Shown piece after piece: positions 6,380 to 62,572 of a stretch of 64,000 bases of DNA. Made by a program: the position numbers and the translations under genes. The notes beneath the pieces were generated by a model. The model searched no databases. It had not been told where the DNA came from and was given only the letters and a program-made list of their open reading frames with translations. The first letter of the stretch is position 1. Every line of letters begins with the position of its first letter. The DNA comes from an uncultured Clostridia bacterium (GTDB taxonomy: Bacteria; Bacillota; Clostridia; Oscillospirales; Ruminococcaceae): contig CAMVNQ010000006.1 in NCBI GenBank assembly GCA_947168885.1, positions 62,001 to 126,000 of the forward strand, given 5' to 3'.

Positions 6380-7168
6380 ATGATCGGAGCAAAAGAAAAG
6401 AACAACATAGAAATAATGCTCGATAATGTTGGCATGACATACGACGCAGCGGACGGGAAAAAAGTTCAGGCTCTCACAAGCGTCACAATGGACATACACA
6501 AAGGCGAGTTCATTTCGCTGCTTGGTCCTTCCGGCTGCGGAAAGACAACGCTTCTACGCATCATTGCTGATCTGTTGCAGCCAACTTCCGGCAAGGTGCT
6601 GATAGGCGGTGAGACACCGAAGGAAGCGCGTCTCAAACGCAAATACGGAATGGTATTCCAGAGCGCGGTTCTGTACGACTGGCGCACAGTTATAAAGAAT
6701 ATCGAGCTTCCGTTGGAGATAATCCACGAAAGCAAGGCGGAGCGACGTGAACGTGCAGTAAAAATGCTCGATCTTGTCGGACTTTCGGAATTCGCCGATC
6801 ATTACCCGAGACAGCTTTCGGGTGGTATGCAGCAGAGAGTCGGTATTGCAAGAGCGCTCGCGTTACAGCCCGAGATACTTCTTATGGACGAGCCGTTTTC
6901 GGCGCTTGATGAGTTCACAAGAGAGAAGCTGCACATAGACCTGCTCAAGATCTGGCGCAAGACAAACAAGACTATTATTTTCGTAACACACAACATCTCC
7001 GAATCCGTATTTCTTTCCGATAGAGTGTGCGTACTGTCGCCCCACCCGGGAAGGCTCTCGGCAGTGATCGACATCGACCTGCCGCGTCCGAGAGCGATGG
7101 AGATAAGAGATACACCCGAATTTACCGCTCTCGTTTCAAAGGTCAGAAACAGCTTTGAGGGAGTTTGA
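6380..7168 (+). CDS. ABC transporter ATP-binding protein (NitT/TauT/SsuB type)
   Basis: This 262-residue nucleotide-binding subunit belongs to the nitrate/taurine/sulfonate/hydroxymethylpyrimidine importer class. Walker A is GPSGCGKTTL, the Q-loop lies in MVFQSAVLYDW, the ABC signature is QLSGGMQQRVGIARAL, Walker B is ILLMDEPFSALD, and the switch His is in IFVTHNISES. It powers uptake through the two permeases encoded downstream. It is the first structural gene of the operon, coupled to the leader ORF. A 92-base spacer separates it from the first permease. Given the catabolic genes behind it, the cargo is probably a pyrimidine base, dihydropyrimidine or hydantoin-like compound; that is inference. 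Confidence 0.92.
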   Translation: MIGAKEKNNIEIMLDNVGMTYDAADGKKVQALTSVTMDIHKGEFISLLGPSGCGKTTLLRIIADLLQPTSGKVLIGGETPKEARLKRKYGMVFQSAVLYDWRTVIKNIELPLEIIHESKAERRERAVKMLDLVGLSEFADHYPRQLSGGMQQRVGIARALALQPEILLMDEPFSALDEFTREKLHIDLLKIWRKTNKTIIFVTHNISESVFLSDRVCVLSPHPGRLSAVIDIDLPRPRAMEIRDTPEFTALVSKVRNSFEGV

Positions 7169-7260: not shown

Positions 7261-8082
7261 ATGAAGGTCATAAAAAAGATCATAGGCTCAAAGCTTTTTA
7301 TAACACTTGTATGGATAGCGGTTATAATCGTTATCTGGGAAGTCCTCGCGTTCCGTGTTGCAGAAGTTAAGCGCACACCAGAAAACGTTCTGCCGCATCT
7401 CACGGGCGTGGTCGATTCGCTCACAAGCAGCAAGACGATAAATGGTTCGCAGACCGCGCTTGAAATGGTACTTGAAAACGCGGGAGCAACACTCTCCCGT
7501 GCCGCTCTCGGATATGTCATTGGTATAGCATCGGGATTTGTACTTGCACTGCTGATGAGCCTGTCCGGAATCATAGAGAAGATAGCGTTCCCGTATCTTA
7601 TGCTGATACAGCTTATCCCGATACTCGGAATGGCTCCGATAATAAACGCGATAACCGGAGACATAGCGATAAGCCGCATCGTGATAGCCGCTATCCTCAC
7701 ATTCTACCCGGTCGCAGCAAACACGCTCGCCGGATTCAAGGCGGTAAGGCGTGAGGCGCACGAGCTTATGTACTCCTATGCGGCAAACAAGTTCCAGCTT
7801 TACACAAAAACGATGATACCCGCTTGTATCCCATATTTCTTCACAGGTCTGAAAATATCGGCACCTATGGCGATAACGGCATCTATCCTTGTTGACACAT
7901 TGCAGGGCGGAATCGGGCTCGGGTGTCTGCTGTCGCAGTCGCTCAAAGGCGCGATGACAAGATATGTGTTCTGGGACATAGTATTTTTCAGCGCGGTGAT
8001 CGGTATTCTCAGCTTCTATCTTATGGGAGTTCTCGAAATACTTCTTTGTCCGTACAAACGACTTGAAAAGAAAGGAAGATGA
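7261..8082 (+). CDS. ABC transporter permease (BPD_transp_1)
   Basis: The 273-residue inner-membrane permease has about six predicted helices, beginning with LVWIAVIIVIWEVLAF. The EAA-like cytoplasmic loop that contacts the ATPase lies around GFKAVRREAHELMYSYAANKF. It belongs to the same importer class as the ATPase upstream. The ATG follows TATAGGAGCTGATTTCT. The stop is only 3 bases from the start of the second permease, so the two subunits should assemble as a heterodimer. The two permeases differ enough to be distinct subunits rather than a recent duplication. Confidence 0.9.
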   Translation: MKVIKKIIGSKLFITLVWIAVIIVIWEVLAFRVAEVKRTPENVLPHLTGVVDSLTSSKTINGSQTALEMVLENAGATLSRAALGYVIGIASGFVLALLMSLSGIIEKIAFPYLMLIQLIPILGMAPIINAITGDIAISRIVIAAILTFYPVAANTLAGFKAVRREAHELMYSYAANKFQLYTKTMIPACIPYFFTGLKISAPMAITASILVDTLQGGIGLGCLLSQSLKGAMTRYVFWDIVFFSAVIGILSFYLMGVLEILLCPYKRLEKKGR

Positions 8083-8085
8083 TCT

Positions 8086-8892
8086 ATGGCTGTAAAAAGC
8101 ATAAGCAAACGACGAAGCGCAGTGCAGTCGGTCGTTCTTCCTCTGATATTCGGAGCGGCACTTATCACCGCATGGCAGACCGGGCTGCTGCACATCCTGC
8201 TCAACACCGATGAATACGTTCTTCCGTACCCGACAAGGATAATCACCATTATAAGCGAGAATACCGACAAGATAATGGTGAATGTGTGGGCTTCGGTGCA
8301 GGTCGCGGTGCTCGGGTTGCTGCTCGGGTCGCTGCTCGGATACCTGATAGCGATATTTGCGGCGACATTCCCGAAATTCGGAAGCGGTGGACTTACGATA
8401 GTCTCGGCGTTCAATGCGATACCGATAGTGGCGCTCGCGCCGGTAATAATCAACTGGACAAAGGACGTAAGCTCCGAAGCGGAAGTCAGGAGCACATTCG
8501 CTAAGATCATAGTTGTGACGGTCGTAAGCATGGCATCTATGAGTGTCAACGCCTACCGCGGGCTTACAGAGCTTCCCGTATTCTCTGACGATCTGATGAA
8601 AACGTACGCGGCGGGCAGGTTGACGGAATTTACAAAGCTCCGGCTCCCGAACAGCGTTCCGTACATCTTCACAGCTCTGCGTGTGAGCGTACCGGGAAGC
8701 GTCATAAGCGCACTTGTCAGTGAGTATTTTGCCGAATATGTCATCGGCGTGGGTCGGCAGATACGCGAAAACATACTGATAGCGCAGTATTCTACCGCAT
8801 GGGCGTATATCGTCACTGCCTGTATCGTCGGCATAGTGATGTACGCGATACTTATGGTGATCGAAGCGCTGGTCATGAAAAAGAGAAAATAA
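8086..8892 (+). CDS. ABC transporter permease, second subunit
   Basis: The 268-residue membrane protein of the BPD_transp_1 family has about six helices. The start is at 8086 after AAAGGAAG. The loop YRGLTELPVFSDDLMKTYAAG is the ATPase-contact (EAA) region. With the preceding permease it forms the channel of the importer. A 78-base gap with AAGGAGGC separates it from the binding-protein gene, a common place for extra processing that raises binding-protein levels. Confidence 0.9.
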   Translation: MAVKSISKRRSAVQSVVLPLIFGAALITAWQTGLLHILLNTDEYVLPYPTRIITIISENTDKIMVNVWASVQVAVLGLLLGSLLGYLIAIFAATFPKFGSGGLTIVSAFNAIPIVALAPVIINWTKDVSSEAEVRSTFAKIIVVTVVSMASMSVNAYRGLTELPVFSDDLMKTYAAGRLTEFTKLRLPNSVPYIFTALRVSVPGSVISALVSEYFAEYVIGVGRQIRENILIAQYSTAWAYIVTACIVGIVMYAILMVIEALVMKKRK

Positions 8893-8970: not shown

Positions 8971-10116
8971 ATGAGATTTTCCAAAAAAACAATGGCAGCT
9001 ATGCTTGCTGCAGCAATGATCGTATCGGCAGTTTCCGCGTGCGGATCTTCTTCCGGAAGCACCGGAACAACAGCAGCCGCAGCAACATCGGCAGCGGCGA
9101 CAACAGCCGCTGCAACAGCTGGTTCGTCTGACAGCGGTGCCGCAATGAGCGACAGTGACCGCATAATAGCAGCTGCACAGGCAGGAAAAGTCGGCAACTG
9201 GGGTCTCGGTAACGAGTATGAGATCTTCGCACTTCTGACAAAGTACGGTCAGGAAAACAAGTTCCTGTCACAGGCTTTCGACATGGATGGTTTCGACGAT
9301 GATTCGATCACTCTCGCGTCAGCTATGACCTACAACGAGCTCGGCCTTGTGAAGAACAGCTATGAGGGCGGTTACGGCTACGGCGACACCGTTGACATAA
9401 TAGATATGAACAACGAGGGCGTTGCGATGCTTGAAGACAATCTCTTCACAACAAAGGCATTTGCGGAAGCAAACCCCAACACAGTAAAAGCGTTCGTTTC
9501 TGCATCCATGAAGGGCTGGAAGTACGCTTGTGAGAATCCCGAAGAAGCGGCGCAGATAGTATTTGAGGCAGGTTCGTCAGTATCGTCCGATCACCAGGCA
9601 TATATGGCTTCAGAAGTAAAGAAGCTCTGTGAGACAGATACAAACGGCAATAAAGTCACAGACTATGGCAAAATGGACGAGAACGCGATGCAGCAGACTC
9701 TCGACCTTGCAAAGCAGTACATAAAGCTTGATGACAGCACTGCCGCCGAGAAGCTCAAGTCGCTTACTCTTGATGACATTCGCAGTACAGCATACTGGAC
9801 AGATGCATCGGTAGGAAAATTCGATGCTCCCGAAAAGAAGGACGTTTCCATTCAGCTCAAATGGCTCCCGCAGGCGCAGTTCATGGGATATTTCGTTGCA
9901 AAGGCAAAGGGCTATTACGATGAAGTCGGTCTGAACGTTACTATCGTCTCGGGCGGCGGTGACATCGGTGAAACAACAGCCGTAAACAACGGCACGGTCG
10001 ATTTCGGCGTAACATGGGTGTCAAACCTTATCTCCGCAAACGCCGGCGGTATGGATCTCCTCGAAATAGCGCAGGTATATCAGCGCTCGGGACTTGTACT
10101 TGTTTACAAGAAGTAA
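8971..10116 (+). CDS. NMT1/THI5-like solute-binding lipoprotein, apparently circularly permuted
   Basis: The protein has a signal peptide and lipobox (VSAC, Cys24) and an Ala/Thr/Ser linker to about residue 70. Residues 72-276 match what is normally the second part of NMT1/THI5-like binding proteins (GKVGNWGLGNEYEIF, SAMTYNELGLV, DMNNEGVAMLEDNLF). Residues 291-381 carry what is normally the first part (IQLKWLPQAQFMGYFVAKAK, YYDEVGLNVTI, GTVDFGVTWVSNLI, IAQVYQRSGLVLVYK). The order is therefore swapped relative to the family, with a new linker at 277-290. All pieces appear present once, so the protein may fold as a circular permutant. It should capture the operon's substrate at the membrane. 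The ligand is unknown, probably a pyrimidine or a breakdown product. Confidence 0.85.
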   Translation: MRFSKKTMAAMLAAAMIVSAVSACGSSSGSTGTTAAAATSAAATTAAATAGSSDSGAAMSDSDRIIAAAQAGKVGNWGLGNEYEIFALLTKYGQENKFLSQAFDMDGFDDDSITLASAMTYNELGLVKNSYEGGYGYGDTVDIIDMNNEGVAMLEDNLFTTKAFAEANPNTVKAFVSASMKGWKYACENPEEAAQIVFEAGSSVSSDHQAYMASEVKKLCETDTNGNKVTDYGKMDENAMQQTLDLAKQYIKLDDSTAAEKLKSLTLDDIRSTAYWTDASVGKFDAPEKKDVSIQLKWLPQAQFMGYFVAKAKGYYDEVGLNVTIVSGGGDIGETTAVNNGTVDFGVTWVSNLISANAGGMDLLEIAQVYQRSGLVLVYKK

Positions 10117-10185: not shown

Positions 10186-11541
10186 ATGGATATGATAATC
10201 AAAAACGGAACGATCGTAAACGCGTCTGGCAGTTTCAAAGCCGATGTCGCTGTAAAGGACGGTAAGATCGTCTGCATTGCGGACAGCATTCCCGCCGGAG
10301 ACTGTGAAAACATAGTTGACGCAAGCGGAAAGCTGGTGCTGCCCGGCGCGATAGACGCACACACGCACCTTGCGATGCCATTCGGCGGCACGGTATCATC
10401 TGACGACTATTTTGCCGGAACGAGGGCGGCTGCCTGCGGCGGTACGACAACGGTGTTTGACTTCGCGTTACAGAATTTCAACGAGAAGATGACAGATACC
10501 GTTAAAAGACGCGATGCTCTTTGCGCTCCGAACGCGGCGGTCGATTACTCGTTCCACGTTGCGGTAAAGGATGTTGAGAACGGTCTGATCGACGGCATCG
10601 GCGAATGCGTCGAGATCGGTGTTCCGTCATTTAAGGTGTTTATGGTCTACGATTTCGGAGTTACCGACGGAGTTTTCTTCCAGGTGCTCCAGAAAGCAAA
10701 GGAAGCCGGAGCTCTTATCGAGGTACACGCCGAGAACAACGAGCTCGTGAATATGCTCACAAAGAAGTATCTCTCCGAGGGCAATACGAGCGCGTGGTAT
10801 CACTATATGTCCCGTCCGGAATTTGTTGAGGGTGAAGCGGACGAGCGAGCTATCCAGTGGGCAAAGGCGAGCGGCGCTCCGCTCTACATCGTGCATCTCG
10901 CCAACAAGCAGGGTGTCGAGGCTGTTACAAAGGCTAAGGACGAGGGCTACGAGATATACGCCGAGACCTGTCCGCAGTACCTCGAATTCACGAACGAAGT
11001 CTATAAGCGCGAAGACGGCAGAAACTTCGTATGCTCACCGCCTATGAAGGGCAAAGAAAGTCAGGATGCTCTGTGGGAAGCAATAAAGCGCGGCGACATC
11101 GATACGATAGCTACCGATCACTGTCCGTTCCAGTCGTATGAAAAAGACTGGGGCAAGGATGATTTCACGAAGATTCCGAACGGCTGCGCGGGCATCGAGA
11201 ATATGTATCCGTATATGCTTTCCGCAGCGAATACCGGAAAGATCACATTCGAGAAAGCGGTCGCGCTCTGCTCCGAAAATCCCGCAAAGATATTCGGCTG
11301 TAAGGATAAAGGCGTTATCGCAATAGGAAAGGATGCGGATATTGTCATTTACGACCCGGCTATCGACTTCGCAATAACCAACGAAAAGATGCACTCTGAC
11401 TGCGACCATACGATCTGGGAAGGCGTGACTGTACACGGCTATCCTGTTCAGACCTACTGCCGCGGCAGACTTGTTTACGACAACGGCGAGTTCGTCGGAG
11501 AAAGGGGTTACGGAAAGTTCGTCAGATGCAGCTTGAAGTAA
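10186..11541 (+). CDS. dihydropyrimidinase (D-hydantoinase family)
   Basis: This 451-residue amidohydrolase-fold enzyme opens the ring of dihydrouracil or dihydrothymine to N-carbamoyl-beta-amino acids in the cytosol. The metal site is complete: DAHTHLAMPFGG supplies the first two His, SFKVFMVY the carboxylated Lys, VHAENN and YIVHLA two more His, and ATDHCPF the catalytic Asp. Length fits the dihydropyrimidinase/hydantoinase family. The start follows AAGGAGCAGCTT. It is followed 9 bases later by the PreA-type dehydrogenase that makes its substrate, so the assignment to pyrimidine rather than hydantoin breakdown rests on context. Confidence 0.92.
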   Translation: MDMIIKNGTIVNASGSFKADVAVKDGKIVCIADSIPAGDCENIVDASGKLVLPGAIDAHTHLAMPFGGTVSSDDYFAGTRAAACGGTTTVFDFALQNFNEKMTDTVKRRDALCAPNAAVDYSFHVAVKDVENGLIDGIGECVEIGVPSFKVFMVYDFGVTDGVFFQVLQKAKEAGALIEVHAENNELVNMLTKKYLSEGNTSAWYHYMSRPEFVEGEADERAIQWAKASGAPLYIVHLANKQGVEAVTKAKDEGYEIYAETCPQYLEFTNEVYKREDGRNFVCSPPMKGKESQDALWEAIKRGDIDTIATDHCPFQSYEKDWGKDDFTKIPNGCAGIENMYPYMLSAANTGKITFEKAVALCSENPAKIFGCKDKGVIAIGKDADIVIYDPAIDFAITNEKMHSDCDHTIWEGVTVHGYPVQTYCRGRLVYDNGEFVGERGYGKFVRCSLK

Positions 11542-11550
11542 GGTGATAAA

Positions 11551-13020
11551 ATGCTGAAAATCAGAGAAGAAGCCGCACGCTGTATGTTGTGCGGCAACGC
11601 GAAATGTACGCTCGTCTGTCCGAAAGAATATGACCCCGCGAGAGCGGTAAGAGCGGTAAGATTTGAAAACGAAAATATCGCAGGCAGCTTCGTTGACACG
11701 GCTGTCTGCGCCGAATGTGACGGCGTATGCGAGAAAGCCTGCATACACTACGACCGCCCGATAAGGATACGGGAGATTTTCTCTGAGCTGCCGGAACAGA
11801 TAAAGACCGGCGATCCGGACCTGTCTATAGAATTCTGTGGAGTTAAGTGCGAGAATCCGTTCTTCCTCTCTTCCTCGATAGTCGCGGGCGATTACGAAAT
11901 GATCGCACGGGCGTTTGACATGGGCTGGGGCGGCGCGGTGTTCAAGACGATAGGCTTTCTGATCCCCGACGAGGTCTCGCCGCGTTTCGGCGCTATCGGA
12001 AAAGAGGGAACGCCGTTCATCGGCTTTAAGAATCTCGAACAGATCTCCGATCACGAAACTCAGTATAATCTTGATGTGATTAAGCGGCTCAAAGCCGAAT
12101 ATCCGACAAAAGTCATAGTTGCGTCAATAATGGGACAGAACGACGAGGAATGGGTGCAGCTCTCAAAGCTCGTGACCGAAGCCGGCGCGGACATCATAGA
12201 ATGTAATTTCAGCTGTCCTCACATGAGCGGGAACGGGCTCGGCTCCGATGTAGGACAGAACCCGGAACTTGTGAACCGCTATACTGAACTGGTCAAAGGC
12301 GCAACGCACCTTCCCGTTCTAGCAAAGATGACACCGAACATAGGAAATATGGAGATACCCGCGATCGCGGCGGCAGAAGCCGGTGCAAACGGTATCGCGG
12401 CGATAAACACGATAAAGTCCATTCTCGGGATAGATGTCGAAACGCTTGAAAGCAGTCCGTCTGTCGGCGGGAAATGTTCCGTATCCGGCTACTCGGGAAA
12501 AGCGGTCAAGCCGATAGCTCTGCGGTTCATACACGATCTAGCAAAATGCGGCAGGCTGTCGGGTGTGGAGCTTTCCGGAATGGGCGGTATCGAAACATGG
12601 CATGATGCGTTGGAATTCATATTGCTCGGCTGCAGGAATATTCAGGTGACGACCGCCGTGATGCAGTACGGATACCGCATTATAGACGATATGACAGCGG
12701 GAATGAAAGCGTATATGACCGCTCACGGCATAAAGAGTATATCCGAGCTTGTGGGCGCCGCACTGCCGAAAATGGTACCCGCCGATATGCTCGACCGTTC
12801 GACCGTTGTTTATCCGTCTTTTGACAGCGGGAAATGTCTCGGCTGCGGCAGATGTTCTATTTCATGCAGTGACGCGGGTCATCAGGCGATCGTAATGAAG
12901 GACGGAAAAGCGAGACTTCAAGCGGCGAAATGCGTCGGCTGTCACCTGTGTATGCTTGTCTGTCCCGCGGGAGCGATAGTAAACAGAAATAAGCGTGTTA
13001 CAAAGCCCAAGAGAGGTTGA
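11551..13020 (+). CDS. preA: dihydropyrimidine dehydrogenase PreA with N-terminal PreT-like Fe-S domain
   Basis: This 489-residue protein reduces uracil or thymine to the 5,6-dihydro form. Residues 1-85 resemble the N-terminal Fe-S domain of PreT and of mammalian DPD: C11, C14, C19, C23 and C53, C56, C60, C64. Residues about 95-400 are the FMN/pyrimidine TIM barrel (NFSCPHMSGNGLGS, AKMTPNIGNMEIPA, INTIKSI, LSGMGGIETW). Residues 428-472 hold two ferredoxin-type [4Fe-4S] motifs (CLGCGRCSISC, CVGCHLCMLVCP). The FAD and NAD(P)H domains that lie between these parts in DPD, and in separate PreT in E. coli, are absent here and elsewhere in the window. Electrons may thus come from ferredoxin or another partner. 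Usual PreA is about 410 residues. Confidence 0.9.
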   Translation: MLKIREEAARCMLCGNAKCTLVCPKEYDPARAVRAVRFENENIAGSFVDTAVCAECDGVCEKACIHYDRPIRIREIFSELPEQIKTGDPDLSIEFCGVKCENPFFLSSSIVAGDYEMIARAFDMGWGGAVFKTIGFLIPDEVSPRFGAIGKEGTPFIGFKNLEQISDHETQYNLDVIKRLKAEYPTKVIVASIMGQNDEEWVQLSKLVTEAGADIIECNFSCPHMSGNGLGSDVGQNPELVNRYTELVKGATHLPVLAKMTPNIGNMEIPAIAAAEAGANGIAAINTIKSILGIDVETLESSPSVGGKCSVSGYSGKAVKPIALRFIHDLAKCGRLSGVELSGMGGIETWHDALEFILLGCRNIQVTTAVMQYGYRIIDDMTAGMKAYMTAHGIKSISELVGAALPKMVPADMLDRSTVVYPSFDSGKCLGCGRCSISCSDAGHQAIVMKDGKARLQAAKCVGCHLCMLVCPAGAIVNRNKRVTKPKRG

Positions 13021-14207
13021 TGCTTATGGCAATTTCACTTTCACAGCTTTGCGAGAATACCGAAAGAAGCTATTCAATGAGACTGATAGCAGGTTCGGGC
13101 GGTATGGAAAACACGGTGCGGTGGGTCCATATCGTTGAGGACAGCGAGGTACCGGATTTCCTGCATGGGAATGAACTGATATTCACGACAGGCATAGCTC
13201 ACAGCGGCAATGAGTGGCTAAAGGATTTTGTCATAAGCCTGAAAGCCAAGGGCGCTGTGGGACTTGTGGTTAATATCGGACCGTATATCACGGCTGTTCC
13301 GTCGCCTGTGATCGTGTTCTGCGAGCAGAACGACTTCCCGCTGTTCACTATACCGTGGGCATCCCGGATAGTCGATATATCCTACGAATTCTGCCGCAGT
13401 ATAATAGGAAACGAAAAGCGTGAAAGCACGATCGGAGAAGCATTCAGAGCTATTATCAAGGATCCCGCCGCGCTGAAAAACTATGGCGATCTGTTCAGTC
13501 GGGCAGAATTCGGTGAAAAGAGCCGGTACACGGTCATTTCTTTAACCGTGTTATCGAACGGAACAAACGTAACAAAGTCGGCGGTGCAGTCAATGGATAT
13601 GAGCATCTGGCGGACGATAAAACACTCAAACTTCCATTCGTCACTGTTCATGCATAACGGGTCATTCATCGCGGTGCGTCAGAATTGCAGCAGCGAGGAG
13701 ATAGACCGGTTCTGCGGCGAGCTTGAAAGAGTCACCGGCGGCACGGGCAGAGGCGTATATATGGGTATCTCGCATACCGTGAACGGACTTGCCGAGGCAG
13801 GTGAAGCCTACGAACAGGCGGATGCGGCGATGCTGATGTCGATGCTTCACGGACAGCCACGGACACATTACCGTGAACTCGGTATAATGAAGCTCGTTTT
13901 CGCGGTGAAGAACCAGAATGTGCTGCGTGAGTTCGTGAGAGAAAACTTAGGGACGCTCCGCAGGTTCGACGTTGAACGCAATGCCGATTACTGCGATACG
14001 CTGAGGCTGTACCTTACCCACAGCGGAAGCGTGAGCGAGGTTGCGGAATCAACAGGAGTCCATCGTAACACGATAAACATAAAAATGCGTGCTATTCGCG
14101 AGATCGTCGGCAAGGAGCTTGACGACAACGATAAAAGCTCGCTTATACTTGCGTTTCTCATTGAGGAAGTGCTTGATATGTACGATAAAAGGAGTGATAT
14201 TCAATGA
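13020..14207 (+). CDS. PucR family transcriptional regulator
   Basis: The start ATG overlaps the preA stop codon (TGATG); ATG 13026 is an alternative. The N-terminal half is the PucR purine-catabolism-regulator-like domain (LCENTERSYSMRLIAG, VRWVHIVEDSEVPDF, NELIFTTG, GAVGLVVN), and the C-terminus is the HTH_30 DNA-binding domain (LTHSGSVSEVAESTGVHRNT, LRLYLTH). PucR-type proteins respond to nitrogen compounds or nucleobases and control their catabolic genes. Its place inside the operon, coupled to both neighbours, points to local control of this pathway, perhaps at the 6272 promoter. No defined operator could be recognised. Confidence 0.9.
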   Translation: MLMAISLSQLCENTERSYSMRLIAGSGGMENTVRWVHIVEDSEVPDFLHGNELIFTTGIAHSGNEWLKDFVISLKAKGAVGLVVNIGPYITAVPSPVIVFCEQNDFPLFTIPWASRIVDISYEFCRSIIGNEKRESTIGEAFRAIIKDPAALKNYGDLFSRAEFGEKSRYTVISLTVLSNGTNVTKSAVQSMDMSIWRTIKHSNFHSSLFMHNGSFIAVRQNCSSEEIDRFCGELERVTGGTGRGVYMGISHTVNGLAEAGEAYEQADAAMLMSMLHGQPRTHYRELGIMKLVFAVKNQNVLREFVRENLGTLRRFDVERNADYCDTLRLYLTHSGSVSEVAESTGVHRNTINIKMRAIREIVGKELDDNDKSSLILAFLIEEVLDMYDKRSDIQ

Positions 14208-15541
14208 GCACGGAAAAAATTTCCGAAAAGATCAGATACGAACACTGCACCTACAATATGCAGTCGTGGTCAAAGCAGAAGGGTCTGAACCCGATCCCGA
14301 TAGAGAAAGCTGACGGCATCTATATGTGGGATTTCGACGGCAACCGCTACACGGATATGTCGTCACAGCTTGTAAACCTTAATGTCGGTCACGGCAACCG
14401 TGACATTATTGACGCGATCAAGGATCAGGCTGAAAAATACTGCTATCTCTCGCCCGGTTACGGAAGTGAGCCCCGCGGTCAGCTTGCGAAGATGATAATA
14501 GAGCTTATGCCCGACAATATGGGCAAGGTGTTCTTCACCAACGGCGGCGCGGACGCGAACGAGAACGCGGTCAAGATCGCACGTATGTTCACCGGCCGTC
14601 CGAAAGTGATGTCCCGCTACCGCAGCTATCACGGCTCGACCTTCGGTGCGGGCAGCCTGACCGGTGAGCCCAGAAGGCAGCCGCTCGAACCGGGCGTTCC
14701 GGGATTTGTGAAGTTCTTCGACCCGTACATCTACCGCGACGATCTTCCGTTCTTGACAGAAGAGGAAGCCTCGGCATACTATGTTAAAAAGCTCCGTGAG
14801 CAGGTCATTTACGAAGGCGCGGATACGATAGCTGCGATAGTTATGGAGACGATCACAGGTTCAAACGGCGTTATCATACCTCCAAAAGGCTATCTGCCCG
14901 GAGTCCGCAAAATATGCGACGAGTTCGGTATCATGATGATCTGTGATGAGGTCATGGCGGGCTTCGGACGAACAGGAAAGATGTTCGCGTTCGAGAATTT
15001 CGATGTCAAGCCCGATATCGTGAGTTTTGCAAAGGGAGTTACCTGCGGTTATGTACAGCTCGGAGGGGTAGTTGTAAGCAAGAAGATCGCGGAATATTTC
15101 GACGATCATCTTCTTTCCTGCGGACTTACCTACAGCGGTCATCCGCTCGCCTGTGCTGCTGGTGTGGCGTGTCTGAACTTCTACAAAAAGGCAAACATTC
15201 TGGATAATGTCGCGGCTGCGGGCGCGGAGCTCGGCAAGTGTCTTGAAGCAATAAAGATGAAGCACAGGAGTGTCGGTGATGTACGATATATCGGACTGTT
15301 CTCGGCGGTCGAACTCGTAAAGGACCGCGAGACCAGAGAGCCGCTCGTTCCCTATGGAAAAGACCCCGACGGAATCATGGGAAAACTGATCGGCGCACTC
15401 AAAAAGAAAGGCTTTATGACATATTCCCATGAAAATATGATACTCATTTCGCCGCCGCTCATAATCACACCCGAACAGGTGCGCGAGGAAATGACAAAGC
15501 TCGATGAAGTGCTTGACGAAGCGGATAAGCTCGTCGGATAA
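14204..15541 (+). CDS. class III PLP-dependent aminotransferase (probable beta-alanine aminotransferase)
   Basis: This 445-residue fold-type I aminotransferase of the omega-amino-acid class overlaps the regulator stop by 4 bases (ATGA). It shows the cofactor-binding FTNGGADANENAVKIAR, the aromatic/His block YRSYHGSTFGAG, the Asp motif ICDEVMAGFGRTGK and the Schiff-base lysine in SFAKGVTCGYVQLGG. In this operon the logical reaction is transfer of the amino group of beta-alanine (or 3-aminoisobutyrate) to a 2-oxo acid, giving malonate semialdehyde. That step follows carbamoyl removal and precedes the reductase encoded downstream. Taurine or other omega-amino acids are possible alternative substrates. 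Confidence 0.87.
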   Translation: MSTEKISEKIRYEHCTYNMQSWSKQKGLNPIPIEKADGIYMWDFDGNRYTDMSSQLVNLNVGHGNRDIIDAIKDQAEKYCYLSPGYGSEPRGQLAKMIIELMPDNMGKVFFTNGGADANENAVKIARMFTGRPKVMSRYRSYHGSTFGAGSLTGEPRRQPLEPGVPGFVKFFDPYIYRDDLPFLTEEEASAYYVKKLREQVIYEGADTIAAIVMETITGSNGVIIPPKGYLPGVRKICDEFGIMMICDEVMAGFGRTGKMFAFENFDVKPDIVSFAKGVTCGYVQLGGVVVSKKIAEYFDDHLLSCGLTYSGHPLACAAGVACLNFYKKANILDNVAAAGAELGKCLEAIKMKHRSVGDVRYIGLFSAVELVKDRETREPLVPYGKDPDGIMGKLIGALKKKGFMTYSHENMILISPPLIITPEQVREEMTKLDEVLDEADKLVG

Positions 15542-15561: not shown

Positions 15562-15984
15562 ATGGCTGAAAATCATTATCGGGACGCTGTACCCTGCAAA
15601 CTGTCCGACTACATAACGCCCGACAAATTCAGGACGGTTATGTATGACCAGCTTAAAATCCCCGGCGGTATCACCGAGATACCCGTCGAGATAATGCTGA
15701 AAAAGGAGACCGCGAAAAAGCTCAGCTTTAAAGTCCCGCGTGACGGTATGGTGTACGGCTTCGCACGGATAAAGCCGAAGGTAAAGGAGATTTTCGCGGC
15801 TGAGGACGCAAAGCTGTTCATCAACGACTGGGATGACAAGTTCGTTATGGTATTTGAACTTGACGGAAAAAGTGAAAAAGCGTTCTTCATCACCGCAGAT
15901 GAGATCGTGTATCTGCTGGAGAACTGTATGAGAGTACCGCAGCAGAAGCCGCCCTATAAAGCAAAGTTTAATTTTTCAAGTTAA
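15562..15984 (+). CDS. uncharacterised 140-residue protein of the pyrimidine operon
   Basis: I do not recognise this family. The protein is soluble, with no signal or membrane segment, and mixed alpha/beta in pattern: an N-terminal DAVPCKLSDYITPDKFRTV, alternating strands (GGITEIPVEIMLKK, KKLSFKVPRDGMVYGFARI, FVMVFELDGKSEKAFFITA) and a short C-terminal helix (EIVYLLENCM). It sits between the aminotransferase and the carbamoylase, spaced 20 and 58 bases from them, so it should be made with the pathway enzymes. It could be an accessory or ligand-binding protein; nothing catalytic is evident. Confidence 0.75.
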   Translation: MAENHYRDAVPCKLSDYITPDKFRTVMYDQLKIPGGITEIPVEIMLKKETAKKLSFKVPRDGMVYGFARIKPKVKEIFAAEDAKLFINDWDDKFVMVFELDGKSEKAFFITADEIVYLLENCMRVPQQKPPYKAKFNFSS

Positions 15985-16042: not shown

Positions 16043-17305
16043 ATGTATAAATGCAGCGAAACAAGAATGGAAGACAAGATAAAGACATTCAGCAAATTCG
16101 GTGATGCGGGACACGGCGGCATCACAAGATACTCGCTCTCCGAGGAAGCCATAATGGCGAGAAAGGAGTTCATCGACCGTATGCTCGCAATAGGAGCAAA
16201 GATCGAAACGGACGATGTTGCGAACCTTTACGCGACTATCCCCGGAAGCGACCCTGATGCGAAGCGCATAGTCATGGCTTCTCACTGTGATTCGGTCAAG
16301 AACGGCGGCAACTACGACGGCATACTCGGCGTAATGAGCGCTATGGAAGTCCTTGAGACTGTTGTTGAGCAGAACATACCGCATAAGCACCCGCTCACCG
16401 CTATGATCTGGACGAACGAGGAAGGCTCGCTCTACCCGCCAGCTATGATGTGCTCCGGTATTGTGTGCTATGACTACCTGCCCGAAGACATCAGAAGCAA
16501 GTTTAAATACGAGGATATGATGCAGTCGAAGAGCATTCTCGACCCCACAAAGACGTTCGGTGAGGCTCTCGAAAGATCTGGCTTCAAGGGGGACAAGAAG
16601 TTCAGACTTGATCCTGACAGATATATGTATATGTTTGAAACGCATATCGAGCAGGGCCCGATCCTTGAAGACGCGGGCAACGACATCGGCGTTGTTGACT
16701 GTGTTCTCGGAATGTTCAACTATCGTCTGAAATTCTTCGGTCAGACGACCCATGCGGGAACATTCCCGATGCCGAAGCGCAAGGACGCATTTTACGCGGC
16801 TTCGCAGGCGCTCTGCTATCTTCACACCGAAATTGACAGGCTTGGTTATCCGGAGCTCGTTTATACCACGGGCGAGGTCGTATGTCATCCCTGCGTGCAT
16901 ACCTGCGTTCCCGATTACTTCGACTTCTCGTTTGATGCGAGACACGAAAAGCCGGAGGTACTTGAAAAAGTTCTCGATATCGTAAAGAGCTGTGCGGAAA
17001 AAGACTGGTCGGGCTGTACCTGTACCGTCGAAAAAGCATGGAACCGCGACACTGTTTATTGGGACAAGAAGCTTGTCGGATACGTAAAGGCTGCTGCCGA
17101 GGAGACCGGCGTATCGCATCAGTATATCCATTCCGGCGCGGGTCATGACGCACAGTTCGCTTCGTATATGCTTCCGACAACTATGATATTTGTACAGTCA
17201 AAGGACGGACTTTCTCACTGTGAGCCTGAGTTCTCGTCGGTAAAACACTGCACAGAGGGCGCGACCGTTATGCTGAATGCGGTGCTCAAAGCTGACAACG
17301 ATTAA
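16043..17305 (+). CDS. M20-family N-carbamoyl-beta-alanine/amino acid amidohydrolase
   Basis: This 420-residue Zn-dependent hydrolase belongs to the hydantoinase/carbamoylase group of peptidase family M20. The di-metal ligands are in place: MASHCDSVKNGGNYDGILGV (His, Asp), TNEEGSLYPPAM (Glu-Glu), HIEQGPILED (His, Glu) and DGLSHCEPE (His). FGQTTHAGTFPM and HSGAGHDAQF are the substrate-binding blocks of carbamoylases. It should release CO2 and ammonia from N-carbamoyl-beta-alanine made by dihydropyrimidinase, giving beta-alanine. Allantoate amidohydrolase belongs to the same family but no allantoin genes are present. A shortened relative lies at 19735. Confidence 0.9.
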   Translation: MYKCSETRMEDKIKTFSKFGDAGHGGITRYSLSEEAIMARKEFIDRMLAIGAKIETDDVANLYATIPGSDPDAKRIVMASHCDSVKNGGNYDGILGVMSAMEVLETVVEQNIPHKHPLTAMIWTNEEGSLYPPAMMCSGIVCYDYLPEDIRSKFKYEDMMQSKSILDPTKTFGEALERSGFKGDKKFRLDPDRYMYMFETHIEQGPILEDAGNDIGVVDCVLGMFNYRLKFFGQTTHAGTFPMPKRKDAFYAASQALCYLHTEIDRLGYPELVYTTGEVVCHPCVHTCVPDYFDFSFDARHEKPEVLEKVLDIVKSCAEKDWSGCTCTVEKAWNRDTVYWDKKLVGYVKAAAEETGVSHQYIHSGAGHDAQFASYMLPTTMIFVQSKDGLSHCEPEFSSVKHCTEGATVMLNAVLKADND

Positions 17306-17315
17306 GGAGTTTTTT

Positions 17316-18470
17316 ATGGGCAGAGAATTTATCGTACCTTCCCGCATTATAACGGGAGAAAACAGTCTGGCATTCGCTGCGAAGGAACTTTGCAGAATGG
17401 GCGACAGAGCACTGATAGTGACCGACCCTGTCGTAATAAAGCTGAAATGCTTTGAGCGGCTTACGCAGCTTCTTTCCGAAAACCGCGTTTCTTACGCGAT
17501 CTATTCCGATGTTACCGGGGAGCCTACTGATGCTATTGTGAATGCAGGACTGTGTAAATACGAGGTAGAGGACTGCGATCATCTTATCGCAGTCGGCGGC
17601 GGAAGCCCGATAGACACGATGAAGGCAATTGCAGCGCTCTCCGTGAACGGCGGTAAGATAGCCGATTATATGGGCAAAGTGATAAAAGGCAGGATGCCGC
17701 CTATGGCAGCGATACCGACAACAGCCGGTACAGGCTCCGAGGCGACAAAGTTCACAGTTATCACCGACAGTGCGACAAGCATAAAGATGCTTCTGAAGGG
17801 TGACTGTCTGATACCGTCGCTTGCGATCATCGATCCCGCATTTTCGATGTCATCACCAAAAAGCGTCACAGCTTCGACGGGTCTCGATGCACTCACTCAT
17901 GCGGTGGAATCTTACACCTCGCGTCTCGCCCAGCCGCTTACCGACGCCGTTGCAATATCTGCTGTCAAACGTATTTTCAGGTATCTTCCGACCGCATACA
18001 GCGACGGAACAAATACCGAAGCAAGGACGCAGATGTCGATCGCTGCGCTCGAAGCGGGTATCGCGATAAACAATGCGTCCGTTACGATAGTTCACGGGAT
18101 GAGCAGACCCATAGGTGCGCTGTTCCATGTTCCGCACGGGCTGTCTAATGCCATGCTTCTCGAAAAGTGCATAGGCTTTGCGCTTGACGGGGCTTATGGG
18201 CGTTTTGCCGATCTCGGACGTGCTATAGGCGCAGCGGAGACTTCCGACAGCGATAAGTCAGCCGCCGAAAAGTTTCTTGGAAAGCTCGGAGAGATATGCA
18301 GGATATGCGAAGTTCCGACTCTCGGCGGATTCGGTATAGACAAGGAAGATTTCCTGTCACAGACGGACAAAATGGCTGAGGATGCGCTCGCAAGCGGCAG
18401 TCCGGGCAATACGTTAAAACCTGTGACAAAAGATGATATTATCGGAATATACAAGTCACTGTGGGACTGA
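17316..18470 (+). CDS. iron-containing alcohol dehydrogenase (putative malonate-semialdehyde reductase)
   Basis: A 384-residue group III Fe-dependent alcohol dehydrogenase. The NAD(P)-binding block is VGGGSPIDTMKAIA and PTTAGTGSEATKF is the family signature. Metal ligands fit STGLDALTHAVES, VTIVHGMSRPIGALFHVPHG. ATG 17316 follows AAGGAG, 10 bases after the carbamoylase stop. As the last operon gene it can reduce the malonate semialdehyde formed from beta-alanine to 3-hydroxypropionate, recycling reduced cofactor in an anaerobe. The substrate is inferred from position; lactaldehyde or other short aldehydes cannot be excluded. Confidence 0.88.
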   Translation: MGREFIVPSRIITGENSLAFAAKELCRMGDRALIVTDPVVIKLKCFERLTQLLSENRVSYAIYSDVTGEPTDAIVNAGLCKYEVEDCDHLIAVGGGSPIDTMKAIAALSVNGGKIADYMGKVIKGRMPPMAAIPTTAGTGSEATKFTVITDSATSIKMLLKGDCLIPSLAIIDPAFSMSSPKSVTASTGLDALTHAVESYTSRLAQPLTDAVAISAVKRIFRYLPTAYSDGTNTEARTQMSIAALEAGIAINNASVTIVHGMSRPIGALFHVPHGLSNAMLLEKCIGFALDGAYGRFADLGRAIGAAETSDSDKSAAEKFLGKLGEICRICEVPTLGGFGIDKEDFLSQTDKMAEDALASGSPGNTLKPVTKDDIIGIYKSLWD

Positions 18471-19734: not shown

Positions 19735-20529
19735 ATGTATAAAGGAGATACGCTGTACAAGTGCAGCGAAGAAAGAATAAAAGTGCTTTTTGACGTATTT
19801 TCGGCGTGCGCAGACAGAAAAGCCGTGTCAAAAGTGTTTTCGGAAAAGATGAAAACGTTAGGTGCGCAGATCGTGACCGATGATCTCGGAAATACTTATG
19901 CTTCGCTGAATGGCAGTGTTGCCGACAGCAAAAAGACAGTCATATCCTGCCCCGACAGTGAAGATATAACAAGTCTCGCTTCCGCGCTTGAAGTGTGTGA
20001 AACGCTTGTTAATTCTGAGAACGAACTCAAGCATACATTGTCCGTACTGCTCTGGAATGATGAGCCTGCGTCCGATCGTCCGCAGCTCGTGCCCGCAATG
20101 GGACTTTTATGCGAAGACTATCTTCCGGAAGAGATACGCCGTGATTACACCGGCATTCAAACGGAAAAAGCGTCAGACAACGGCATAATACACCGGCTTA
20201 ACACAAGCGGGTACGGCCCTTTGTTTGAAGTTCATGCAAATCACGCGGGGATAGACTGTATAGGAATCGCGGACATTGTTCCCGCAGTAAAGTCGAGAAT
20301 GCGCGGAGAGCTGCGTTATAACGAAAAGCTTATGAAGCTGACCGAGGACGCAATCGCCGGCTGTGGTATGAAATATGAAACGCTGCATTATGCTCCTAAA
20401 CGCGATACATGGATAGCGGCACATATGATGCCTTCCGCGGTTATACTTGCTGGCTCGGACGACACACGAAAATGTGCGGATGCGGCGACTGTTCTGCTTA
20501 GCGCAGTATTGCTGGCGGACAAGATGTAA
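19735..20529 (+). CDS. shortened M20 carbamoylase paralogue, probable pseudoenzyme
   Basis: The 264-residue protein is homologous to the carbamoylase at 16043 along its length: LYKCSEERIKVLFDVF against the N-terminus, QIVTDDLGNTYASL, LSVLLWNDEPASD, LCEDYLPEEIRRDY, GLFEVHANHAG-like PLFEVHANHAGIDCIG, and MKYETLHYAP...AAHMMPSAVI. The metal ligands are mostly lost (SHCDSV has become SCPDSE; TNEEG has become WNDEP; HIEQGP has become HANHAG) and the dimerisation/lid insert is missing. The reading frame is intact with a good ribosome site, so it is maintained as a protein rather than a plain pseudogene. It is co-transcribed with the alarmone synthetase. A binding or regulatory role is possible but unproven. 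Confidence 0.7.
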   Translation: MYKGDTLYKCSEERIKVLFDVFSACADRKAVSKVFSEKMKTLGAQIVTDDLGNTYASLNGSVADSKKTVISCPDSEDITSLASALEVCETLVNSENELKHTLSVLLWNDEPASDRPQLVPAMGLLCEDYLPEEIRRDYTGIQTEKASDNGIIHRLNTSGYGPLFEVHANHAGIDCIGIADIVPAVKSRMRGELRYNEKLMKLTEDAIAGCGMKYETLHYAPKRDTWIAAHMMPSAVILAGSDDTRKCADAATVLLSAVLLADKM

Positions 20530-60421: not shown

Positions 60422-62572
60422 ATGGAAAACGGAAAGAAAGCGGGGCTGTTCCGGACGGAAGTCCTGGCGCCGCTTCTGCTCAGCACGGTGGTTTTAAGTG
60501 CCACCGCGTATATATATGCCTGCGGGAACGCGTCAGCAGCCCTGCTGTTTCTTGTGCTGTCCGCGATATACTCATTCGCTCTTTTCGCTATGTATGAGAA
60601 GCTCCGCGCGACGGGAAAGACATGGCTCACGACAGTTATCGTTGCTCTGGTTTTCGTCGCGGTCATGACGGTCGCACCGTTTTTTTCGGATATGGACGGG
60701 CTCGGCGATTTCGGACTCTGGTTCATGGAGCCTTCACGCTATACGCAGGTACATTTCGGCAATACATACACACTCATACTTGTGTTCGGATTTCTGCTTG
60801 TTTCGTGTTTGTACTATTTTACAAGGGTAAGATACCGCGGGGTATTTGTGTTTCTGATATGCCTGTGTCCGTTTTGTCTCTTCGCAAAGACATTCACGGA
60901 TATTCCCGTTATCTTCCCGATAGTTGTGATGACGCTTTTCTTCTTCATTATGGCAGGAAATTCCGGTACAAAGACCGTTATGCCCGAATACGGCAAGGGT
61001 GTATTGAAGGCGACGCTCGCGTTCGTTCTCGCTGTAACTGTCATAGCGTCATTCTTCCCGAAAATGAAGACAGCGCCGTTCAGAGAGAACTTTGACGAGT
61101 TCATCACCGGTGTGAGCATAGGAGCCGAGGGTATAGCGGATTTCAGTGATTTCAGCGAATCATCCTCTTCTGCCACATCGAAAAAAGATGATGATGAAGT
61201 GGTTCTTACGTTCTACGGCGATAACCCGAGATATGTAAAACGCCAGTGCTTCAATCTCTATGACCGGGTGACCGGGACATGGGGGTATTACGGCGACGAC
61301 AACAACGGCAGCAGCAACTGGGAGCGCTATGCATGGTATGAAGACCCGAAGCTGCTTTACCATAACCTTGGATTTGATGAAAGCATCATAAGGTATAAAA
61401 AGAGCAGGATACGCTATGAAAGCGGTAAAGTCAGAGCAGTTTATACTGTTGACAACCTGACCGAGATCGAGCTCTACAACAGTGACAGTAAAATCTATCG
61501 CACAGAGCTTGATGAATATTTCCTGACCAGAGAGGATTCCGAAAATGTAAACTCTTACTTCATAGAATGGTCGGAATTCCCTCTTGACAACAAATACATC
61601 GCCGGTTTCACGGACGAGTACATCAAAAAGCTCGCAGAAGGAGCAGGCGAAGCCGCGGTTGACGCAGCTTCGTATATCCGCGCGGAGGAACAGGCAAAGA
61701 AGTACAACAGCTATCTCCTTTCGGACAAGGTAATGGATGAGTATTATTCCTCCGCGGAAGCGCGCAGAAAAGTAAGGGAACTCGCGGAGAGCCTGACTGA
61801 CGGCTGCGATAACGACGCACAGCGAGCCGATGCGATAGTTGCGCTCTTTCATAACGGAGATTACATCTACGACGACGAGTTCACTACCGCGAATGCTGCT
61901 CCGGACAATTTCATCTTCGGAACAAAGCGCGGTGCCTGTGCTGCTTATGCCACAGCTATGACACTGATGTGCCGCGAACTCGGAATGACCGCTCGCTACT
62001 GCGAGGGCTTCCTTGTCCAGAAGCAGGATGAATCCGGCGGTTTCTGGTATGTAACAGCCTCGGATTCCCACGCCTTTGTTCAGGTCTGGATCGACGGCTA
62101 CGGCTGGACAACGTTTGACCCGACGAGCAACGTAAGGGACGACGGGTATTTTGATGTGACATTCGTTTATGTCGGTGTCGGCGCGGCTGTTATATTCATC
62201 ATAGGTGCGCTGGTCGTTCTTCTGCGTCCGGGATTTGAAGAGTCACGCTTCGTGAGCCGCATGAAGAAGACCCGTGGAACCATGCAGTACAGCATGATAT
62301 ACAGAAAAATAAACGGTATGGTGAATGCGTACTGCGAAAGCAGGGAGAATATGCTCACGCCTTTCGGCACCGCAGATAAATGCAGAGAATTGTTCGGTTT
62401 TGATATATCCGGTTTTGTTATGGAGTACGAGAATGCGGTCTATGGCGGAAAAGGCGATGAACAGGCGGATAATTCCGATATTTATACCGGATTTGTATCT
62501 GCGTACAAAAAAGCCCGCAGGGAAGAAAGGAAGAATTTGAAAAGATGGGGATATTCTCCGCGGAAGAAGTGA
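60422..62572 (+). CDS. membrane transglutaminase-like protein (TgpA/DUF3488 type)
   Basis: The 716-residue protein has about six N-terminal helices (1-210), an extracellular region with a transglutaminase/protease-like domain (Cys in RGACAAYATAMTLMCRELGM, His in SDSHAFVQVWIDGYG, Asp in TTFDPTS), one more helix (VGVGAAVIFIIGALVVLL) and a cytosolic C-terminal region. This matches the third member of MoxR-DUF58-TgpA operons, thought to act on cell-wall or surface proteins. The catalytic triad is complete. Its end overlaps the birA start by 28 bases. Confidence 0.88.
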   Translation: MENGKKAGLFRTEVLAPLLLSTVVLSATAYIYACGNASAALLFLVLSAIYSFALFAMYEKLRATGKTWLTTVIVALVFVAVMTVAPFFSDMDGLGDFGLWFMEPSRYTQVHFGNTYTLILVFGFLLVSCLYYFTRVRYRGVFVFLICLCPFCLFAKTFTDIPVIFPIVVMTLFFFIMAGNSGTKTVMPEYGKGVLKATLAFVLAVTVIASFFPKMKTAPFRENFDEFITGVSIGAEGIADFSDFSESSSSATSKKDDDEVVLTFYGDNPRYVKRQCFNLYDRVTGTWGYYGDDNNGSSNWERYAWYEDPKLLYHNLGFDESIIRYKKSRIRYESGKVRAVYTVDNLTEIELYNSDSKIYRTELDEYFLTREDSENVNSYFIEWSEFPLDNKYIAGFTDEYIKKLAEGAGEAAVDAASYIRAEEQAKKYNSYLLSDKVMDEYYSSAEARRKVRELAESLTDGCDNDAQRADAIVALFHNGDYIYDDEFTTANAAPDNFIFGTKRGACAAYATAMTLMCRELGMTARYCEGFLVQKQDESGGFWYVTASDSHAFVQVWIDGYGWTTFDPTSNVRDDGYFDVTFVYVGVGAAVIFIIGALVVLLRPGFEESRFVSRMKKTRGTMQYSMIYRKINGMVNAYCESRENMLTPFGTADKCRELFGFDISGFVMEYENAVYGGKGDEQADNSDIYTGFVSAYKKARREERKNLKRWGYSPRKK

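Follow-up and report, generated by a model that had tools for sequence, protein, structure and literature searches.

The question raised by this locus is how the chain of one solute-binding protein is ordered and how that order came about. The window, meaning the whole 64,000-nucleotide stretch analysed (positions 62,001 to 126,000 of contig CAMVNQ010000006.1, assembly GCA_947168885.1, from an uncultured Clostridia bacterium of the Ruminococcaceae), contains a 381-residue open reading frame (ORF) that an earlier note, made from the letters alone, had described as a clean circular permutation of an NMT1/THI5-like binding protein. On sequence evidence the ORF encodes an NMT1/THI5-type solute-binding protein of the ATP-binding cassette (ABC) class whose chain is circularly permuted. 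It is further deduced to be the binding lipoprotein of a pyrimidine importer feeding the Pyd enzymes, with a chain whose NMT1/THI5 order was rearranged within the operon, on present data in a single event; the probability of this reading is put at roughly 0.88.

The major data for the chain order were profile matches. The protein was found to match the Pfam family NMT1 (PF09084; E 3.6e-27, 96.1 bits against a gathering score of 20.5) in two stretches that do not keep the canonical order, the profile start (positions 2-81 of 216) lying at the protein end (residues 302-381). All 56 permuted proteins scanned matched PF09084 (E 0.001), and the unpermuted proteins of loci L170 and L010 matched it in a single stretch (profile 2-216). 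The best PDB sequence match, 4nmy_A, was likewise crossed, with its residues 5-73 corresponding to query residues 289-358 and its residues 89-259 to query residues 52-217. The 56-row profile of permuted proteins, A1, whose first position is ORF residue 60, was aligned profile to profile (hhalign) with one built from nine unpermuted relatives, with the spirochaete protein L170 at its head. A1 12-221 aligned with L170 156-370 (E 6.4e-71) and A1 227-322 with L170 48-143 (E 1.2e-44). Both matches are off-diagonal, non-overlapping and complementary, and a third was noise (E 0.54); each part is therefore present once, with the order exchanged. The reversed order and the single occurrence of each conserved block, both asserted in the earlier note, are thus borne out. 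Both parts are homologous to one protein, with the old ends joined, as in a circular permutant; identity to L170 is 70% in residues 291-381 and 53% in the other part.

The proposed boundaries of the parts (72-276 and 291-381) stand, although the first block probably starts slightly earlier, at about residue 63, as judged by eye from the alignment of relatives. A signal peptide ending in SAVSA-Cys24 and a low-complexity linker precede the new start, as had been claimed, and residues 1-24 are presumably processed as a lipoprotein signal. The join between the old termini is about 14 residues long in the window protein, of which residues 281-285 are covered by neither hhalign block; in the majority sequence of the relatives the join closes with PEKxDV. 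In hhalign some 12 residues of L170 (144-155), at the former first crossover, found no counterpart; the permuted proteins start there with a helical segment that still looks similar to this stretch by eye (L045 TAKDIVEDAAKKGKVGNW, L170 SGKDITNATKVGNW). Residues 63-276 would comprise lobe 2, the return hinge strand and the C-terminal helices, and residues 291-381 the N-terminal part of lobe 1 and the first hinge strand, LVLVYK.

The order is not peculiar to the window. A scan of 84,980 species genomes with the permuted query, of which the best 80 matches were kept, gave 79 loci (L031-L109), 58 in Bacillota, 17 in Spirochaetota and 4 without assignment, going by record titles; these numbers favour permuted relatives, since the query was permuted, and are not a census. 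Among 109 loci altogether, 85 ORFs were permuted and 7 canonical (5 different genes); the first part alone matched 5 more distant ORFs of binding proteins, and the second part alone 3 ORFs, at contig ends. Counted among the 85 are the window protein (L001) and a few genomes that apparently occur twice (such as L002/L031, L003/L032). For A1, the copies and fragments L001, L031, L032, L044, L079, L087, L101 and L107 were dropped, leaving 77, and these were thinned to 56 below 90% identity; L099, with a masked stretch, was then exchanged for the window protein, giving 56 rows. Chance is excluded by the same order in all 85 ORFs. The permuted version is conserved across numerous bacteria of gut, rumen and soil.

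An artefact of assembly or binning, in which a chimeric contig swaps the two parts, was also weighed. The window genome is split into 32 contigs, and in three other assemblies a contig stops at the join or near it (L100, L102 and L106). Against this, the order was found in many independent assemblies and cultured strains by record title (e.g., L045, L052, L053, L061, L075, L083, L087, and L094) and in L066 (Anaerocolumna sp. AGMB13025), whose record title names it a complete genome. Whole genomes of L045, L053, L061, L066, L075, L083, L087 and L094 each gave one match (E 1e-8), permuted in 8 of 8. An artefact is ruled out by the complete genome of another organism, and its probability is taken as practically nil. 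L116 has the same contig end as L102; ends near the join could be chance or a strain-variable spot.

Structure prediction, one of the checks proposed in the earlier note, gave a single confident model of the permuted protein (predicted local distance difference test score, pLDDT, 94; predicted template modelling score, pTM, 0.92). Its elements are those of the L170 model in rotated order, and the L170 model matches 4nmy and 3ix1 over its whole length. The model predicts one compact fold with both hinge strands, which may be the type II solute-binding fold; its lobes and crossovers are assigned provisionally. In this arrangement lobe 2 would come first in the chain, the C-terminal part would complete lobe 1, and the first crossover strand would end the chain. 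A single covalent crossover would link the lobes where formerly there were two, and the membrane anchor would lie on the side of lobe 2 and no longer on that of lobe 1. The conserved residues would stay in place, but the wiring would change. By analogy with other importers, the ligand would bind between the lobes, the lobes would close, and the closed protein would dock on the two permeases.

The two parts and the linkers were found to differ in constraint. In comparisons of the window gene with five relatives, the nonsynonymous rate (dN) was 0.005-0.14 for the normally first part and 0.05-0.16 for the normally second part, with the synonymous rate (dS) >1 or saturated in the same five. Linker dN was 0.51-1.41 for residues 25-62 and 0.28-0.57 for the join (277-290). 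Purifying selection is thus strong on both parts, which rules out a decaying gene, and the linkers are much less constrained. When 99 sequences of the two orders were compared (89 permuted, nine unpermuted and that of the window), residues identical in 97% or more of them were found in both parts. By these measures the permuted gene encodes a working protein, in agreement with the earlier note.

For the trees, 94 permuted ORFs were reduced to 89 and then to 32 representatives (thinned at 82% identity). In the combined tree of both parts, the 32 form one clade (100/100) with the unpermuted L170 as sister (100/100), and the second part alone agrees (95/97). The unpermuted sisters L170, L177 and L178 share insertions with the permuted proteins that the other aligned unpermuted relatives lack. 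Permease trees, made by a quick method before L170 was found, split the partners of permuted and unpermuted proteins (Shimodaira-Hasegawa-like approximate likelihood ratio test 93 and 100). Sequences from Treponema and other spirochaetes interleave with Bacillota sequences, which suggests horizontal transfer.

A fusion of halves from different paralogues would also give an exchanged order. Residues 291-381 are more conserved than the other part, by the identities to L170 given above, and the tree of this part leaves the permuted clade unsupported. The unevenness is also seen against the more distant unpermuted L010 (57% and 38%), and separate trees of the two parts place the permuted proteins beside the same unpermuted family, with both parts matching L170. 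The part trees and hhalign matches rule out unrelated halves, so that both refutations foreseen in the earlier note, a fault of assembly and unrelated halves, fail, and a fusion of paralogues is considered highly improbable.

By present data the circular permutation arose once, in place within the operon. The ancestor would have had its chain in the usual NMT1/THI5 order; the chain would have been opened just past the first lobe-to-lobe crossover strand, LVLVYK, with a short linker joining the old ends. Tandem duplication is a common route to circular permutation, and here a tandem gene duplication may have been followed by loss of the first part from copy 1 and of the second part from copy 2. 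This route is given only as the common one, since no duplication intermediate was found. A search for remnants beside the gene in the 79 loci (L031-L109) gave only 3 weak stray tblastn matches (E 0.26-0.36).

The gene neighbourhood points to the probable function (Table 1). By a strict criterion, 62 of 69 loci have ATPase, permease and permease genes immediately 5' of the permuted gene; on its downstream side, in 62 of 71 loci with enough room, the first two matched genes are those for dihydropyrimidinase and PreA. The unpermuted L148 and L149, and the closest relatives L170, L177 and L178 (Spirochaetota), sit in the same cluster type. The cluster in the window looks like a full reductive pyrimidine pathway by its sequence matches. 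Its enzyme set is that of the clostridial Pyd cluster in PMC7332683, and its aminotransferase and iron-type alcohol dehydrogenase would fit the PydD and PydE roles described there; the true start of the latter gene may be later. The same paper describes a ferredoxin-dependent PydAc, which the PreA-like protein resembles in having an extra N-terminal Cys-rich region and in that a PreT-type (FAD/NADPH) gene was not noticed by eye among the neighbouring ORFs, no search having been aimed at PreT. The main text of PMC7332683 has 0 occurrences of the word transporter. The combination of a lipobox (lipidation predicted) with an operon of ATPase and permeases is that of an ABC importer binding lipoprotein. 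The function is probably pyrimidine uptake, most likely with uracil, thymine or a near derivative as substrate, as judged from operon and family; a pyrimidine as the putative ligand is suggested by the neighbourhood and by the whole-length fold match of the sister L170 to 3ix1 and 4nmy.

Table 1. Features of the permuted gene and its cluster (positions in the window)
Feature	Position	Strand	Evidence
ABC transporter ATPase	6380..7168	+	PF00005 E 4.3e-35
ABC transporter permease 1	7261..8082	+	PF00528 E 8.1e-19
ABC transporter permease 2	8086..8892	+	PF00528 E 5.8e-17
Permuted solute-binding protein ORF	8971-10116	+	381 aa
Signal peptide and lipobox, residues 1-24 (...SAVSA-C24)	8971..9042	+	sequence reading
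Low-complexity linker, residues 25-62	9043..9156	+	13 A, 10 S, 7 T, 5 G of 38
Normally second part, residues 63-276	9157..9798	+	hhalign to L170 156-370, E 6.4e-71; model
New join of old C- and N-termini, residues 277-290	9799..9840	+	between two hhalign blocks
Normally first part, residues 291-381, and stop	9841..10116	+	hhalign to L170 48-143, E 1.2e-44; PF09084 profile 2-81
Dihydropyrimidinase (PydB)	10186..11541	+	NCBIfam TIGR02033 495.6 bits, cut-off 393.25
Dihydropyrimidine dehydrogenase, PreA-like	11551..13020	+	NCBIfam PRK08318 559.8 bits, cut-off 335, residues 90-481
PucR-type regulator	13017..14207	+	PF07905 E 1.7e-27
Class-III aminotransferase (PydD-like)	14204..15541	+	PF00202 E 3.7e-92; role after PMC7332683
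Hydantoinase/carbamoylase family amidase (PydC-like)	16043..17305	+	TIGR01879 319 bits, cut-off 204
Iron-type alcohol dehydrogenase (PydE-like malonic semialdehyde reductase?)	17277..18470	+	iron-ADH models, below cut-offs

A receptor or sensor domain would be the alternative to an importer binding protein. In the wider family one ORF (L119) joins an NMT1-type domain to an apparent histidine kinase, and nothing else specific was found in favour. Where a locus leaves enough room, the permuted gene almost always comes after genes for an ATPase and two permeases, and Pfam gave no further domain in the 56 proteins scanned; a sensor role is judged very improbable. In L119 (G285) the NMT1-type domain is unpermuted, the kinase-like region that follows was identified by eye, and the ORF reaches the locus end.

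Several observations weigh against a pyrimidine-importer protein permuted once within its operon. In the tree of the first part alone (96-97 columns) with L170 as the only sister, the starred branches force two changes. With three sisters, trees with one permuted clade made up 0% of 200 bootstraps, and in the best tree the sisters fall beside one permuted row; forcing the permuted rows together costs 0.94 log units and is not rejected (approximately unbiased test, p-AU 0.461). A repeated half, expected of a duplication intermediate, was seen in 0 of 149 ORFs. The substrate assignment is drawn from the gene neighbourhood, and in 10 of the 79 loci dihydropyrimidinase and PreA were not both seen, nine of these loci being limited to <8 kb; L091 has 12 kb without the pair. 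The gene is also patchy in its lineages, as deduced from low fractions in three samples: 12 of 393 class genomes with a match in one or the other order (E 1e-12); matches in 3 of 296 Spirochaetota genomes (E 1e-20), two permuted, including the chosen centre G827, and one unpermuted; and the permuted gene in 8 of 35 same-genus genomes (E <1e-150).

Natural permutation of binding proteins has precedents. PMC2395249 describes a circular-permutation family that includes glycine-betaine-binding proteins (OpuAC 2B4L, ProX 1R9L and 1SW1), molybdate-binding proteins and CysB. The likeness to OpuAC is one of fold order only and not of sequence, as the Pfam scan (E 0.001) gave NMT1 and NMT1_2 alone, with no match to the OpuAC family model. 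TpMglB-2 (Tp0684) of Treponema pallidum, termed 'Type Ic / cluster Bc', is a naturally permuted ABC binding lipoprotein (PMC4990184). As here, the first strands of its N-lobe were moved to the C-terminus, and it too occurs in treponemes and Gram-positive bacteria. It probably differs in its Type I fold and glucose ligand. Its permuted part is hardly alignable by sequence (13% identity reported), and it gained a hinge crossing where the NMT1/THI5-like protein would have lost one. TpMglB-2 was not among the 50 structure matches listed, which in itself does not prove a difference of fold. The binding-protein rows among those 50 are presumably type II.

The closest known system is the unpermuted NMT1/THI5-like branch of pyrimidine clusters (L170, L010, L125), which is homologous over both parts, with the same operon slot and partners; the permuted proteins differ by the exchanged parts, the cut first-crossover link and the added join, and are better placed in PF09084 as a permuted branch than among its ordinary members. 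No report of a permuted NMT1/THI5-like protein was found in the open-licence papers searched, and passages of PMC11036815, PMC2861598 and PMC10030565 gave nothing on permutation; within that literature, natural permutation is known for TpMglB-2 and betaine-binding proteins. The permutation claimed in the earlier note holds, and what lay beyond that note is its wide occurrence, the pyrimidine-degradation operon, the unpermuted orthologues in the same slot and the other permuted binding proteins in print. Natural permutations reported earlier in binding proteins connect structures that are only remotely related. In this family the two orders occur in orthologues (53%/70% identical) that share an operon slot, so that matched pairs are available for testing how chain order affects ligand binding, closing of the lobes, tethering and transport. 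Annotation by the best single profile stretch would set wrong bounds for permuted proteins.

Two adaptive explanations for the permuted order were considered. PMC4990184 suggests that the TpMglB-2 topology is possibly adapted to membrane anchoring, and a moved anchor might similarly relieve strain on the ligand site here. A lipobox-like motif was found by pattern in 73 of the 85 permuted ORFs and by eye in L161 and L165, and by eye the nearest unpermuted sisters L170, L177 and L178 lack one. However, 9 of the 85, seven of them spirochaetal (L067, L069, L074, L077, L078, L081, L091; also L084 and L109), by eye have a signal peptide and no lipobox (the 85th ORF, L101, lacks its start), and the unpermuted L010, L121 and L126 carry the motif. 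Anchoring thus looks neither necessary nor sufficient for the permuted order. Tethering as a general cause is unsupported; adaptation to tethering is regarded as unlikely here, and the sequence evidence speaks against it as the origin of permuted binding proteins. Also unlikely is that the order is a selected design and not a frozen accident, the single hinge altering opening and closing or permease docking. On this view, opening the chain at the first crossover would turn lobe 2 and lobe 1 into contiguous units with one covalent hinge between them. Permuted chains have become established more than once among binding proteins with two lobes (TpMglB-2, the betaine-binding proteins and now the NMT1/THI5-like family), and the permuted importer would have been carried along with its operon through both Bacillota and Spirochaetota.

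Some further features of these clusters were recorded. In the spirochaete loci L067, L069, L074, L078 and L081 the dihydropyrimidinase and PreA genes are more distant (41-46% identity) and on the opposite strand. A fast-evolving unpermuted paralogue was seen in an ATPase-permease-permease-binding protein cluster in L118, L120 (G379, G366), L155 and L156; no pyrimidine gene was matched there, and the paralogue probably has another substrate. G366 carries both this paralogue and the permuted gene. In the window, a second, shortened ORF (19735-20529, 264 aa) by eye resembles the carbamoylase of Table 1. A 140-residue ORF at 15562-15984, with no NCBIfam match, is also present in clusters L034-L039, L041, L042, L049 and L108.
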